NCBI GenBank assembly: GCA_015065135.1
Contig: SVQY01000020.1
Location: forward strand, 1 to 38,827
Source: Oscillospiraceae bacterium
GTDB lineage: Bacteria > Bacillota > Clostridia > Oscillospirales > CAG-272
Length of the DNA: 38,827 nt
Direction of reading: 5' to 3'
The position numbers and the translations under genes are program-made. Positions 16,156-25,606 of the stretch are shown here, one piece after another; position 1 is the first letter of the stretch, and each line of letters opens with the position of its first letter. The notes beneath the pieces were generated by a model, which was given only the letters and a program-made list of their open reading frames with translations, was not told the origin of the DNA and did no database searches.

Positions 16156-16202
16156 AACACAAAAAATGGCCCCCTTTTTGGGGAGGCCATCTTTTTTGTG
16201 TT
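16156..16202 (-). terminator. Intrinsic terminator of the SipW-type secreted gene pair
   Basis: Long A/T-flanked hairpin with a GC core (TGGCC plus CCCC against GGGG plus GGCCA, one bulge), preceded and followed by A/T runs that extend the pairing. Confidence 0.8.
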
Positions 16203-16332: not shown

Positions 16333-19300
16333 TCAGTCGTTCTGATTGATCACGTAATGGAGACAAGAGCTGTAAAGCTCGCCGAGTGCACGCATAGAGG
16401 ACGCGCAGTAGTGTGCCCAGTCGGTGTTGTCGCTTTCGTTTCCGTAGTCCTCGTACAGCGGATCGCTCGGATCAAGCTCGTGAGCCGTTTTCTTCGAAAG
16501 CAGATGGCTCGTGTCGATGTAGATCGAGTTCGCGATCGCACCGCTCTGATCGGGGTTCGCAATCGTAGGAACGTTAAGTCCGAACACGTAACCCTCGAGC
16601 GGTCCCTCCGTCAACGCGGAATCACTCGATGCGCCGATAATCGAGCAGAGCCACTGGCTGTTGCTGATCTTGCCACGGTTGACCTCAAGCGAGTAAATCC
16701 AGTCGTTCGGACCGGTACCGCCGGTTGCAGGCTGCTTGCTATCATTGTTCGCAATACCAGCATTAATGAAGGAAATACCCGAGCCGGGAACCTGCAGAGC
16801 CGAGGTCGCTCTCGTTGCGTAGGCAGCAAAGGTGTTGCGGACGCGATTGACTAGCGCTTCCTCAAGCGCTGCATAGTTTTTCGCAGTAGCCTCGGTTGCA
16901 GCATCGGATTCACCCTGCATCCACATGAAGCTGCGGATTCGAACGTCGTAGCCCTCTTCCTCAAGACTGTCGAGTGCATCTTGTACGTAAGCAAGCATAT
17001 CGTCGGTCAGATTCGTGTTCTTTCCGTCGATCGTGCAACCCGATGTCCACTGACTGCCAAGTGCCGTTCCTGCCGCAGCATATTTGATAATATACCAGTT
17101 TTCTCCGTTCAGGGCAGTATTCGTTGCAAGCGAGTATGCAAGCGCAAGTTCGGGACCGAAGTAGGTCGTGCCCTGTGCACCGATACCGACACGATACTTC
17201 TCAAAGTCGCCGTTCGAGAAGATCGTGCTGAGCGAGCCGGGGATCGATTCGTTGGGAGCAACGTCAAAGTTGATATTCGCGTACTTGATAAAGACGTTTG
17301 AATAATCAAAGCTTGCATAATTATCGATAATATCCTGCGTCAGCGGTGCGGGACCGAACATATTCGACTGACCTGCCATAATGATCACATTTGCGTTCGG
17401 CTTCTCGGTATCAATAAAGGTCGCGTCGTTTTCGGACACCTCTGCCATATTGACCGTCCAGTCAGCAAGCGGAGACATACCGTCCTCAAAGACGAGCACC
17501 CAGTGTACCGTATAGCTCTCACCGGGCTGGAAGGTGCCGCAGTTCATCTCGAGCAGCGAGTGACCGTTGTTCCAACCGAAGCTATTATACATGTCGCCCT
17601 CGGTATATACGATCGCAGGAGCAGTCCACTGCAGGGTCGAGAGATCGTCGCCAATGTAGTAGCCGAAGCCCTTCAGCTGCGGAGCATCCTCCAAGCAACC
17701 AACCACGCAGTTGATACCAAGCGTCGTATAAGGCTTTGCGTTATCGATCGTCAATCCGTAATATCCTTCCGAATATTTACCTTCGACGAAATTACCCCAG
17801 TAGGTATTGCCCCATTCACCGTACTCGTTATTAAATCCATAGACGAGCTCGCCGTTCGGCGCGGTATAGGTCAGGTTGTTATTAGCAAAATGATCGTAGG
17901 TATATGCGCTATTGACCAAATGTGCCCAACCGGAAACGTTAAAGCCACCAGTGGCGAAGAAAGGAGCCTTTACAGCAGTGTTGTTAGGATCCGCGATGGG
18001 CAATCTGATACGATCCTCCAAAAGCGTAAGGCTATGGATTGAAACCGTACAGGTTGCGGTCATAACATTGCCGAAATCGTCGGTATAGGAGATCGTAAAC
18101 GTCTTGCTGTCGGCGGTTTCTGCCGCCTCAACGAAGGTAAAGCTCGTAATCTTTCCGCTACTACCATTCTTGCTCGTTGCATAGACGACAAAATCGTCGT
18201 TCGTAAAGACATGATCCTTGTCGTAAACGCCCTTGAGCGGCTTTGCCGAGATCGAGATGATATTCATAATGACCTTGTACCATGTCTTATAGCTCACACC
18301 GTCGATCGTGACCGGGGTAACAAGATCGGTTTCCGCAATCTCGCAATCTTTTGCCAGCTTAATGGACGAATTATCCATAATACCCTCGTCGGTCGGTTTA
18401 GCATCGGGATGTTCCTTGAGGATATTTTTGAATTCGCTAGTATGTGTGGGATCCTGGCGATACGCTTTATCGATCAGCATAACGCCTTCGTGTATGGTGA
18501 TGAAAGGTCTGTCGCCCTCATATCCATTGGTAGCGTTGAACGCACCGTTGTTACGGTTAAGAACGTCATTGGGGGTATTATTATAAAGGAAATAACCGCC
18601 GTAGATGTTCATATTACCGCCCTTACCTGCGTAAATGAGAGCACGGTTGCTGTTCTCGTGCTTCATGTCACCGTTTGCGGGGTCGAAATTGCCGTTACCG
18701 TCAACAGATGTACCGATGGGATCGCCTGCATAGGAGTCTGCGATAAACGCGCCGCTGTAAATATCTACGTAGGAGGGAGTATCGTAAGGTGCCCAGACCA
18801 TATAGATAGAGCTTGCCATCTTGATAAAGCCGGTTCCGACTCTGTCGATAATGTTCAGGCTGCCCTCTTTGTCAACAAAGAACAGAGCGCCAACGTCCTG
18901 ATTGCCGGTAGCAGTATCGCTGCACTTGACGGTGATCTTGTGACCGTTCAGATCAATGGCAACGTTCTGACCGATGATATTGACCGCATTATGGTAGGTT
19001 TTACTACCGCTTACCAGAACGTGCTCACTGCTGCGGTCTGCGCTGCCTGCAGTCAGATCAATGGTAAAATCAGCCGTCAGCTTGATCTCTACGTCGCTTT
19101 GCTTAACGGCATCACGCAGAGCTGCAAGAGTTTCAACCTCGATCTCTTCATACTCAAACGCATAAGGGCTGAAGCTGCCGGTCTTGAAGGTGAGAGTACC
19201 TTCTACCTCATCATAAACCGCATCCTCGATCAGAACACCGTTATGATAGGCGTTCATCGCTGCCAAAGCATTGGGAGCGGCGACCGCAACGGTGACCAGC

Positions 19301-20214
19301 TGATCGCCGGAAAGGTTCTCCTTCAGGTTGGTAACAGAAATATCAAATGCGTATGCCTTGGTATTCTCACCGACGGTAATGGTCTGAGAAGGATCGATAC
19401 CGTCAAAGGTAACGGTTACGGGCTGGGTGGGATCTGCAATGGCGCTTGCGGGAACGGTGACCGTTGCAATGGTCAAGCCATCGTGAACAAGCTCAAAGTC
19501 CACAGACCCGGCACCATCTGCAAGGGTCTTGCTTTCCGTTGCCAGGATAGAGGTATCCGACAGATCGTCAAAGGTAGCATCCTTATCGTACTGATCGTCA
19601 AAGCTATCAAACTCGGCCGTGTACTGCGTTGCGTAAATGCGGATATCGAAGGCGCCGCCGAGTGACAGGCCCTGATACTCGTTGCCTGCATCCTCACGCA
19701 TTCTCAGCGCAATGCCGAGATAGGCACACTCCCCTGCCTCCAACGTACCGTAGGTGGTCTCCTCAATGGAGTTGATGAACTTGCGCAGGTTGCCAACGCA
19801 TGTGTAACCGTCAAGGTTGCGATCGGCAGGATAAGCAAGCTCGCTCTCACTGGGATAAACGTAAACGTCGATCACGTCGGCGAGAATGGAAAGCTCCTTC
19901 TCAGAGTAGAGCTTGGCGACCCACTTCAATGCGAGCGTTCCCTCATTCTCTACCTTTAATACTTTAACGTCAACGTAACCGGGCTCCCACTTGTCATAAT
20001 CGAAAATTGGATCCTGACTTTTCTTCAGAGAGCTCCAAACACCCGTCTCCTTGTCAAGCAGCTCCAGATCAAGCTTCAAAGTACCGGACTGGATCTTGTT
20101 ACCCGAGCTGGTCACCGAATCGGTGAACCAGGCCCACGTCGTACCGAGGAGCATAGATATACACAGGAGCAATGAAACAACGCTCATCAATAATGATTTT
20201 TTAGTGTTTTTCAT
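16333..20214 (-). CDS. Large secreted protein: SipW-type/TasA-like N-terminus, beta-helix and Ig-like regions, C-terminal SGNH acetylesterase domain
   Basis: A 1293-aa protein. Residues 1-30 form a SipW-type signal peptide (SLLLCISMLLGTTWAWFTD), followed by a TasA/camelysin-like module to about 215 ('SGTLKLDLELLD', 'GTLALKWVAKLY', 'GGAFDIRIYATQYT'). A beta-sandwich-like segment covers about 225-350, a right-handed beta-helix-like region about 355-640 ('VAIDLNGHKITV', 'NMNIYGGYFLYNN'), and a Big_3-type Ig repeat about 645-720. After an unrecognised region comes a SGNH hydrolase domain from about 940: GQSNM with Ser950, WMQGESDA with Glu1102, and DTSH with Asp1234/His1237. These fit the CE6/sialate-O-acetylesterase group, which removes acetyl groups from sugars. 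No LPxTG anchor is visible. The start is ATG 20214 after AAGGAG. It lies 18 nt downstream of a paralogous gene in the same operon. Confidence 0.85.
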   Translation of the reverse strand: MKNTKKSLLMSVVSLLLCISMLLGTTWAWFTDSVTSSGNKIQSGTLKLDLELLDKETGVWSSLKKSQDPIFDYDKWEPGYVDVKVLKVENEGTLALKWVAKLYSEKELSILADVIDVYVYPSESELAYPADRNLDGYTCVGNLRKFINSIEETTYGTLEAGECAYLGIALRMREDAGNEYQGLSLGGAFDIRIYATQYTAEFDSFDDQYDKDATFDDLSDTSILATESKTLADGAGSVDFELVHDGLTIATVTVPASAIADPTQPVTVTFDGIDPSQTITVGENTKAYAFDISVTNLKENLSGDQLVTVAVAAPNALAAMNAYHNGVLIEDAVYDEVEGTLTFKTGSFSPYAFEYEEIEVETLAALRDAVKQSDVEIKLTADFTIDLTAGSADRSSEHVLVSGSKTYHNAVNIIGQNVAIDLNGHKITVKCSDTATGNQDVGALFFVDKEGSLNIIDRVGTGFIKMASSIYMVWAPYDTPSYVDIYSGAFIADSYAGDPIGTSVDGNGNFDPANGDMKHENSNRALIYAGKGGNMNIYGGYFLYNNTPNDVLNRNNGAFNATNGYEGDRPFITIHEGVMLIDKAYRQDPTHTSEFKNILKEHPDAKPTDEGIMDNSSIKLAKDCEIAETDLVTPVTIDGVSYKTWYKVIMNIISISAKPLKGVYDKDHVFTNDDFVVYATSKNGSSGKITSFTFVEAAETADSKTFTISYTDDFGNVMTATCTVSIHSLTLLEDRIRLPIADPNNTAVKAPFFATGGFNVSGWAHLVNSAYTYDHFANNNLTYTAPNGELVYGFNNEYGEWGNTYWGNFVEGKYSEGYYGLTIDNAKPYTTLGINCVVGCLEDAPQLKGFGYYIGDDLSTLQWTAPAIVYTEGDMYNSFGWNNGHSLLEMNCGTFQPGESYTVHWVLVFEDGMSPLADWTVNMAEVSENDATFIDTEKPNANVIIMAGQSNMFGPAPLTQDIIDNYASFDYSNVFIKYANINFDVAPNESIPGSLSTIFSNGDFEKYRVGIGAQGTTYFGPELALAYSLATNTALNGENWYIIKYAAAGTALGSQWTSGCTIDGKNTNLTDDMLAYVQDALDSLEEEGYDVRIRSFMWMQGESDAATEATAKNYAALEEALVNRVRNTFAAYATRATSALQVPGSGISFINAGIANNDSKQPATGGTGPNDWIYSLEVNRGKISNSQWLCSIIGASSDSALTEGPLEGYVFGLNVPTIANPDQSGAIANSIYIDTSHLLSKKTAHELDPSDPLYEDYGNESDNTDWAHYCASSMRALGELYSSCLHYVINQND

Positions 20215-20232
20215 AGCCAAATCTCCTTAATA

Positions 20233-21798
20233 TCACTGAGGGAGCTTTTGATATACCTGTTCACCGTCAATGATAATCGTTGCGGTAGCAGATACCTTAC
20301 CCGTGGTACCGATATTTCCTGTGTAGGTGATAGTTTCAGCCTCAATAGTGCCGCCAGTACCAAGGATTAGAAGAGCATATCCTCCTTCAGCTTCGATAGA
20401 GGAGTTTTTAACATAGGCGCAAGAGCCATTGCCTACTGCAACGCCGTATGTAGCTTTGATTGTGCAGTTCTCTACCCAAACGCCAACGGTCTCGGAGTGA
20501 GTAGAGTACTGCGCGCCGATTGCTACATGCTGATTCGATGTACCGGTGACAACGATCTCCGCATTCTCAATCACCGCATAGCCAACACGGAAGCCTCTAT
20601 TCGACTCATAATAACCTCCGTCGATCTCAAGCGAGAACTGATCTCCGGTGTAGTGATAAGCATCAACTATCCACGATCCGTTAGTGGAACCGTCAATCGT
20701 TACAACATTATTCATTGTAATTGCAATTGCACCGTCTCCACGGGGCTTAATAAACGAGCCGTTATCGGTGGAACCAATGTACTTACCGCCATTAAGAGTA
20801 ACGGTCGCGTCGTTGCCTGCGGGAATGTTAACAAGACCGTAAGCTCCTACAAGTACAACTTCTTGATTCTCTACATTAGTAGTCGTATCACTATTAACGG
20901 TACCGTTAATGGTATAGTCTACCTCGTCAGCAAGCTCGAACGGACGACCCTTCAACGCAGAAGCATCAATATCATATCCATTCAAATGAACGATCAAATC
21001 TTTTTCAATCATTATCGCAGTATCTGCTGCTGTAAATACAATGTCAGCTGTAAGGTAGTATTCTCCACCAATCTTTGCTGCCTTTCTAAATTCGTCCAAA
21101 CTATTGATCGTGCCGAATCCGGTCTCTGCATCATACAGATCATCGAAGCTGTCTTCCTCGTAGGTGTGCTGGGTGGCCACGATCTTGAGGTCAAATTTGC
21201 CGCCAAGATCAAGGTTCTGATACTCGTTTCCTGCCGTGGGATCCATGCGAAGCACGATGCCAAGATAGGATTCCTGGCCGGCCTCAAGCGTTCCCTTGGT
21301 CATGGCCGTCAGGTTCTCAATGAAGTCACGAAGAGTAAACTTCTTGAACTGACCCTGCTCGGCAAGGGTATCAAACTGTGCGCGATCGGTAACACCGTCA
21401 ATGTAATCCCTTACGGTGTCGCTGCGGTCATCGCTTCTGACGTAGACGAAAATGGCGTCGGCAAGAATAGAAAGACTCTCCTCTGTCATAATGACGGCCT
21501 GCCACTTCAGCGCGAGCGTACCAAGATTCACAACACGAAGATTGACGACCTCGGTATAGCCGGGCTCCCATTTCGTGTAATTGAAAATCGGATCGCTCGA
21601 AGCATCGACCCACTTTTCGCCATCAACGTCCCACTTTTCAAGTGCGATGTCTAACGTACCCGTTTGAATGAGGTTACCGGAAGAGGAAACCTGATCGGTA
21701 AACCAAGCATACGTGGTTCCAAGGAGCATGGAAATACACATAAGCATGGCGATCACGCTCATCAAAAGGGCACGCTTGGTGCTTTTTTTGCTTGTCAT
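20233..21798 (-). CDS. Secreted SipW-type/TasA-like protein with beta-helix C-terminus
   Basis: A 521-aa protein whose first 230 residues are clearly paralogous to the next gene's product: SipW-type signal peptide (SMLLGTTYAWFTD), 'SSGNLIQTGTLDIALE', 'YTKWEPGY', 'GTLALKW', 'SLSILADAI', 'GTLEAGQESYLGIVLRM', 'LGGKFDLKIVATQHT'. The rest, from about 250, enters with 'LDEFRKAAKIGGEYYLTADI' and continues with Asn/Gly-rich short strands typical of a right-handed beta-helix ('VTLNGGKYIGS', 'SLEIDGGYYES', 'VWVENCTIKATYGVAV'). No catalytic motif was found. Proteins of this kind are usually processed by a SipW-like signal peptidase and form cell-surface or matrix material; none is encoded in the window. 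The start is ATG 21798, 11 nt after AGGAGG; the upstream ATG at 21837 precedes that ribosome site. Confidence 0.83.
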   Translation of the reverse strand: MTSKKSTKRALLMSVIAMLMCISMLLGTTYAWFTDQVSSSGNLIQTGTLDIALEKWDVDGEKWVDASSDPIFNYTKWEPGYTEVVNLRVVNLGTLALKWQAVIMTEESLSILADAIFVYVRSDDRSDTVRDYIDGVTDRAQFDTLAEQGQFKKFTLRDFIENLTAMTKGTLEAGQESYLGIVLRMDPTAGNEYQNLDLGGKFDLKIVATQHTYEEDSFDDLYDAETGFGTINSLDEFRKAAKIGGEYYLTADIVFTAADTAIMIEKDLIVHLNGYDIDASALKGRPFELADEVDYTINGTVNSDTTTNVENQEVVLVGAYGLVNIPAGNDATVTLNGGKYIGSTDNGSFIKPRGDGAIAITMNNVVTIDGSTNGSWIVDAYHYTGDQFSLEIDGGYYESNRGFRVGYAVIENAEIVVTGTSNQHVAIGAQYSTHSETVGVWVENCTIKATYGVAVGNGSCAYVKNSSIEAEGGYALLILGTGGTIEAETITYTGNIGTTGKVSATATIIIDGEQVYQKLPQ

Positions 21799-22138: not shown

Positions 22139-22245
22139 CTACTTAGGCGCATTTTCTTTGCAATTTAACAGTTTTTTTACATTTATCCATAAATTTTGCC
22201 CGTTAAAAGGCTCTATCTGTGCCTCCGTGCCTCTTGAAAAACCAC

Positions 22246-22285
22246 AAAAAAAGATGAGCAAGAAGCTTCTTGCTCATCTTTTTTT
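22246..22285 (-). terminator. 40-bp perfect palindrome, intrinsic terminator of the GH3 gene
   Basis: Two 20-nt arms (22246-22265 and 22266-22285) are perfect complements with no spacer, bounded by seven A on the left and seven T on the right. It is able to terminate in either direction. Confidence 0.85.
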
Positions 22286-22342
22286 GAGTTACACAGAAAA
22301 CTACCCGCAATGCAAGTGGGCAACAAAGGTTATACCCCAAAT

Positions 22343-24832: not shown

Positions 24833-25606
24833 TTACAATTGTCCGCGCATCCGCTCCAGAGCACCCTTTTCCAGGCGTGAGACCTGCGCTTGCGAGATGC
24901 CGATGCTCTCGGCGATCTCCATTTGCGTCTTACTCTGATAATAGCGCATCTCGATGATCTTACGCTCCCGCTCACTAAGGGTCCGCATGGCATCCCGCAA
25001 CGCAATGCTTTCCAGCCAATGCTCGTCCCCGGCCGAGGTATCGCTCAGCTGATCCATTACGTAGATGGAGTCCCCGTTTTCGCTGTAGACCGGTTCATAG
25101 AGCGAGATCGGCTCAATGATCGCCTCCATAGCGCGCAGCACCGGCTCGCGCTCCTCGCCAAGCTTTTGCGCGATCTCGTCCACGGTAGGCTCCCTTTCCT
25201 TTTCTCTGGTCAGATCCTCTCTTGCCTGCAACGCGCGATAGGCGAGATCACGCACCGAGCGGCTGATACGGATGGAATTATTATCCCGCAGATAACGGCG
25301 GATCTCGCCGATGATCATCGGCACGGCGTAGGTGGAAAATTTGACGTCAAGCTCGGTGTTGAAGTTGTCCACCGCCTTGATCAGTCCGATGCACCCTACC
25401 TGAAAGAGATCATCGGGGTTTTCCTTCCGTCCCGAAAAGCGCTGAATGATAGAAAGCACCAGGCGCAGATTGCCGTAGATCAGCTCCTCTCTGGCGCTCT
25501 CATCCCCCTCCTTCGCCTTGATCAATAGCACTCTTTTTTCTTCATCGGTCAAAGTCTTCAGCTTCGAAGTGTTTACACCGCAAATTTCAACCTTATTCCA
25601 ATACAT
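24833..25606 (-). CDS. sigG: RNA polymerase sporulation sigma factor SigG (forespore-specific)
   Basis: Late forespore sigma factor that turns on spore-protection and germination genes. The 257-aa protein keeps the distinctive SigG N-terminus 'NKVEICGVNTSKL', region 2 with 'DDLFQVGCIGLIKAVDNFN' and 'VKFSTYAVPMIIGEIRRYLRDNN', region 3 'EPTVDEIAQKLGEE', and region 4 'KTQMEIAESIGISQAQVSRLEK'. This pattern separates it from SigF, SigE and SigB. The ATG at 25606 follows AAAAGGGGAAG. In B. subtilis sigG follows spoIIGA-sigE, but here it stands alone after a metabolic operon and ahead of a GH3 gene. A sigma-F-type promoter lies directly upstream. Confidence 0.95.
   Translation of the reverse strand: MYWNKVEICGVNTSKLKTLTDEEKRVLLIKAKEGDESAREELIYGNLRLVLSIIQRFSGRKENPDDLFQVGCIGLIKAVDNFNTELDVKFSTYAVPMIIGEIRRYLRDNNSIRISRSVRDLAYRALQAREDLTREKEREPTVDEIAQKLGEEREPVLRAMEAIIEPISLYEPVYSENGDSIYVMDQLSDTSAGDEHWLESIALRDAMRTLSERERKIIEMRYYQSKTQMEIAESIGISQAQVSRLEKGALERMRGQL

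Follow-up and report, generated by a model that had tools for sequence, protein, structure and literature searches.

The window analysed here, 38,827 nt of an Oscillospiraceae bacterium, is contig C66 (SVQY01000020.1) of a draft genome (2.37 Mb, 88 contigs, 84% complete). On its minus strand we found two adjacent genes whose products, of 521 and 1293 amino acids (aa), both begin with a SipW-type signal and a TasA/camelysin-like module (N-module); the longer product, here called the chimaera, ends in an SGNH esterase domain of the SASA kind. We propose that this cassette is an operon of SipW-processed TasA-like proteins, the second presenting a SASA-type O-acetylesterase at the cell surface or in the matrix, an explanation that we consider moderately probable as a whole. 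The observation made in an initial annotation of this DNA is confirmed; of its interpretation, the TasA-like N-terminus, the SGNH/SASA C-terminus, the single open reading frame (ORF) and a pattern of relatives consistent with a natural fusion are supported, whereas the Asp/His pair and the role given to Glu1102 do not. The genes and the parts of the chimaera are:

20233 to 21798, minus strand: gene of the 521-aa partner, with SipW signal, TasA-like module and repeat-rich C-terminus
16333 to 20214, minus strand: gene of the 1293-aa chimaera, with an ATG start at 20214 (TTG at 20220 according to the ORF caller) and AAGGAG 8 nt before the ATG
19585 to 20214, minus strand: residues 1-210, SipW-type signal and TasA/camelysin-like module, residues 30-41 being a candidate donor-strand segment
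19135 to 19584, minus strand: residues 211-360, beta-rich linking domain, 70% identical to a relative in genome G085
18259 to 19134, minus strand: residues 361-652, beta-helix-like region, 62% identical to the same relative, homology weakening from about here
17755 to 18258, minus strand: residues 653-820, immunoglobulin-like stretch and linker, poorly modelled
17416 to 17754, minus strand: residues 821-933, beta-rich accessory region adjoining the esterase, common to a lipoprotein-like relative (L071)
16336 to 17415, minus strand: residues 934-1293, SGNH esterase domain of the SASA kind
17362 to 17373, minus strand: Block I GQSN, Gly948-Gln949-Ser950-Asn951
16909 to 16917, minus strand: Block III QGE, residues 1100-1102
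16411 to 16422, minus strand: Block V DWAH, Asp1265 to His1268, likely catalytic pair

The TasA-like nature of the N-terminus, as first annotated, is borne out by its signal, by a family match and by its predicted structure. Both cassette proteins score above the cut-off of the SipW-type signal model TIGR04088 and match Pfam Peptidase_M73 (33.1 and 32.4 bits; cut-off 22.5), over only about positions 3-82 of the 196 in that model; the NCBIfam TasA model NF046066 gave no match up to an E-value of 1 on either protein. The N-module is predicted to adopt the jelly-roll fold of TasA, and a fold search with this model returned a filament subunit as top match and another, PDB 7ueg, as second (11% identity, root-mean-square deviation 7.3 Å).

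According to PMC9674648, the donor strand of TasA fibres comprises residues 28-38, and Phe29, Ile32 and Phe39 make hydrophobic contacts. Our N-module model has low confidence at residues 31-41, and its first strand begins at residue 48; the VIA alignment with TasA begins at model residue 42, opposite TasA residue 40. If this offset of two is carried N-terminally beyond the alignment, an extension of our own, Val34 and Ile41 come to lie opposite TasA Ile32 and Phe39, with Phe30 one residue off Phe29. Among 48 aligned modules (alignment A2, from which 2 of the 50 N-modules listed were left out) Phe30 is conserved in all 48, Val34 in 41 and Ile41 in 45 (positions 32, 36 and 43 in alignment numbering). 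The conserved segment at residues 30-41 thus fits a donor strand, although it does not prove one. It is possible, if doubtful, that the module is a device for SipW-dependent export to the cell surface only and does not polymerise, the chimaera then being a monomeric esterase near the wall or membrane. The longest module carriers, at 2105 aa, would indeed be bulky as fibre subunits; on the other side stand the two filament subunits at the head of the fold search and the conservation of the candidate donor segment throughout the alignment.

The C-terminal domain matches Pfam SASA (57.5 bits; cut-off 24.8), its predicted structure has an SGNH fold with matches to 2apj and 3pt5, and it carries all three motifs expected of a SASA/CE6 enzyme, GQSN, QGE and DXXH; these results, along with a profile search, uphold the SGNH domain originally annotated. 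Its catalytic residues had been given as Ser950, Glu1102 and Asp1234/His1237, and here only the serine was retained. In SASA enzymes, by the scheme in the review PMC9487903, the catalytic Block I Ser adjoins a Gln of the oxyanion hole, the Block III (H)QGE holds that Gln, and the Block V DXXH is general to SGNH enzymes. Glu1102 would accordingly belong to the QGE motif that holds Gln949. GQSN and QGE are invariant across 11 aligned esterase rows, the chimaera included (alignment A4; 2 of the 13 esterase domains listed were left out), and Asp1265 and His1268 occur in 10 and 11 of these rows. His1237, by contrast, is found in one row, a His standing one column earlier in two others; Asp1234 is present in 8 and may therefore have a structural role. 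The profile search also aligns the DXXH pair of the chimaera with that of 2apj, within a low-score stretch, and Asp1265/His1268 are the likely catalytic pair as judged from these alignments. Drift at catalytic-motif sites does occur, as a lipoprotein-like SASA protein on contig C86 of the same genome (L105:6765-7901, lipobox-like start) has QGC for QGE. In the chimaera, however, Gln949, Ser950, QGE, Asp1265 and His1268 are all kept, and apart from the Asp they are invariant in the alignment, so that a domain that is catalytically dead, or that has become a glycan-binding part, is improbable.

Both domains lie within one ORF, unbroken over 1293 codons and inside a 38.8-kb contig, and the two ends have separate relatives. 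A G085 protein (L053) is 45% identical to the chimaera over residues 1-210, 70% over 211-360, 62% over 361-652, 34% over 653-720 and 23% beyond, and has a leucine-rich-repeat match near its own C-terminus; a protein of genome G222 with a lipobox-like start (L071) is 30% identical to residues 821-1288. The gene shows an even GC content throughout (0.47-0.56 per 100 codons). Together, the separate relatives and the even GC content form the pattern expected of domain shuffling, and the sequence evidence, from one genome, fits a natural fusion of this kind. That the fusion is an assembly artefact is very improbable: the draft is fragmented and incomplete and the fusion appeared in no second genome among the loci scanned, but against this stand the unbroken ORF within a long contig, the even GC content and a relative with a different C-terminus of its own behind the same residues 1-652.

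How widely each part occurs was examined in partly overlapping draws of genomes, in which at most 2 candidates per genome (whole protein), 10 (module, family) or 8 (module, order and class) were scored, so that the counts are lower bounds. In the GTDB family the whole protein found matches, through either end, in at least 101 of 295 genomes, and the module profile in at least 63 of 295 genomes and 36 of 71 genera; in the order and class draws the module was present in at least 51 of 345 and 25 of 341 genomes. From the matches of these two draws 40 stretches were taken into the further analysis. A same-strand module neighbour lies within 500 bases in 138 of 258 module ORF rows (some counted twice in overlapping stretches), so tandem pairs like the cassette are common. 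Arrays of module proteins, several in one genome and differing widely in length, occur at the loci L082, L063, L058 and L214.

We scanned 199 module proteins with Pfam, each about 300 aa long or longer, in sets of 48, 45, 44 and 62 that include both cassette proteins and a few that overlap or are truncated at a contig end (a redundancy filter dropped 2 of 137 in one scan). Peptidase_M73 matched 38, 38, 32 and 54 members of these sets. Other families gave 102 matches in total, and at least 97 of the 199 had nothing beyond M73 at an E-value of 1e-3. LRR_5 occurs in 5, 3, 5 and 5 members and Beta_helix in 4, 3, 4 and 8, while C-type lectin, Laminin_G_3 and MucBP_2 are found in one module protein each. 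SASA was detected in a single protein, the chimaera, and no other clear catalytic family was seen among the 199; five names that hint at an enzyme or at self-processing (Peptidase_M26_N, Pectate_lyase_5, Pect-lyase_RHGA_epim, Nucleoporin2 and Hint) were left unexamined. The initial annotation had suggested searching other genomes for this domain order, and in our own hidden Markov model scans of ORFs of at least 80 aa module and esterase stand together only in the chimaera. These scans covered the scanned loci except the short loci L001-L043 and, in one scan, L099-L103; one esterase match listed in the order draw, from G093, escaped them, in an ORF that begins with an ordinary signal. In one open-access library, judged from titles and the starts of abstracts, we found no report of a TasA-like or SipW-dependent protein fused to an acetylesterase, which, like the single case among the 199 module proteins, agrees with the initial annotation, to which no such joining was known; a few searches of its listings likewise gave no description of the set of module proteins.

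Two candidates for a second fusion were set aside. An ORF on contig C9 of the same genome, cut at the contig edge so that its N-terminus is unseen, carries SASA within beta-helix-like sequence; it is probably not a module fusion, because the related protein in G265 has an ordinary Sec-type signal at its start. The G265 protein, a surface protein from the same genus with 4,901 or more residues (L185:3-14705), apparently continues on another contig with a SASA domain (L186:4643-6625). A 2279-aa ORF of G281 (L187) matches the esterase profile but lacks GQSN in the matched part; another ORF precedes it, and its true N-terminus is uncertain.

At an E-value of 1e-10 the esterase profile had matches in 20 of 394 genomes drawn from the order. 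By a simple pattern, a lipobox-like motif lies near the start of 16 of 36 distinct esterase ORFs (viral contigs included, one cut ORF left out). The closest esterase domains found, those of L071 and of L047/L048, are 37-42% identical, and L047 carries a type I dockerin. Going by their signals, SASA enzymes seem to be placed extracellularly in several ways in this group, the TasA-like module being one.

The genome codes for three SipW-like peptidases; contig C30 has one and C37 the other two, and small TasA-like genes lie close to them. None passes the SipW model cut-off of 190 bits (80.5, 54.1 and 76.0), and the C30 protein is above the signal peptidase I cut-off (68.7 against 51.85). Contig C66 of this draft has no sipW, and C1 has a weak partial signal-peptidase match. 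C37 further encodes a protein of 669 aa whose module belongs to the same subfamily. In the C37 cluster (L052) the two SipW-like peptidases are accompanied by small TasA-like proteins and by two longer proteins whose C-termini are beta-rich. A SipW peptidase acting in trans may cut the cassette signals.

The cassette has a GH3 gene on one side and an ABC transporter pair on the other, and 18 bases separate the stop codon of the 521-aa gene from the ATG of the 1293-aa gene, an arrangement that suggests a two-gene operon. Two hairpins mark its borders:

22245 to 22286, minus strand: terminator-like hairpin of 19 pairs at the boundary between the GH3 gene and the cassette
16161 to 16195, minus strand: terminator-like hairpin after the cassette, from the hairpin scan

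Such hairpins are not clearly in excess on this stretch (9, with 6.7 expected in shuffles). With one of them in between, a transcript shared with the GH3 gene seems unlikely, and we do not regard that neighbour as a co-transcribed partner. A gene for a SigG-kind sporulation sigma factor (24833-25606; above the cut-off of PRK08215, not of TIGR02850) lies upstream of both the GH3 gene and the cassette. An Rfam scan of the window found no RNA family. The 521-aa partner has no recognised enzyme domain, and Pfam beta-helix families do not match the chimaera. A phage or plasmid origin was rejected, with 2 of 50,697 phage records matching (both through the N-module) and no plasmid record; among viral contigs one has an N-module match and seven have weak esterase matches.

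In the explanation that we propose, the cassette is a small operon encoding two exported proteins, whose signals would be cut by a SipW encoded elsewhere in the genome. In each protein the jelly-roll module would be the common end for export and assembly, followed by a beta-rich repeat region, and the second would have gained its C-terminal esterase by natural domain shuffling, so that the cell could present a carbohydrate O-acetylesterase on a TasA-like subunit. Most likely Ser950 would attack the acetyl ester, with His1268 and Asp1265 as base and acid and with Gln949, held by QGE, in the oxyanion hole. The L047 dockerin and the ruminant gut samples named for several relatives favour acetylated plant polysaccharides as substrate; O-acetylated sialic acid is a possible alternative.

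A broader idea is speculative and, on balance, rather unlikely: the TasA-type module might be a standard plug in this group of gut Clostridia. Varied surface proteins that share it would co-assemble by exchange of donor strands, and the SipW-dependent filaments so formed would bear interchangeable cargo (beta-helices, leucine-rich repeats, lectin-type domains, the esterase), as the counterpart of an enzyme scaffold that uses neither sortase nor cohesin. The known role of TasA-like proteins is that of fibre subunits; here the cargo behind a module of this kind is long and varied and in one case includes a predicted enzyme. This uncommon natural combination hints at enzymes mounted on biofilm-type fibres, and if the module polymerises, gut Clostridia would be able to attach both enzymes and binding domains to fibres of the matrix. 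The shared module offers a direct handle for testing such mounting, in a large set of proteins.

Compared with known systems, the N-module resembles TasA of Bacillus subtilis (PDB 8aur; PMC9674648) in its SipW-type signal, its predicted jelly-roll fold and a conserved segment at the donor-strand position. Unlike TasA, which according to that report ends at residue 261 and is encoded in an operon with TapA and SipW, the chimaera continues for more than 1000 further residues and its contig has no sipW. The bundling pilus of the archaeon Pyrobaculum calidifontis (7ueg) is similar in fold but distant. The C-terminal domain shares its Pfam family and the GQSN, QGE and DXXH motifs with the SASA/CE6-type esterases At4g34215 (2apj), 1zmb and NanS (3pt5), and its fold with 2apj and 3pt5. 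Related bacterial SASA proteins sit on a lipoprotein-like carrier (L071) or follow ordinary signals (L047, with its dockerin, and L048), and none of them is on a TasA-like module; in the chimaera, unlike in these and in 2apj, 1zmb and 3pt5, the esterase is fused behind one.
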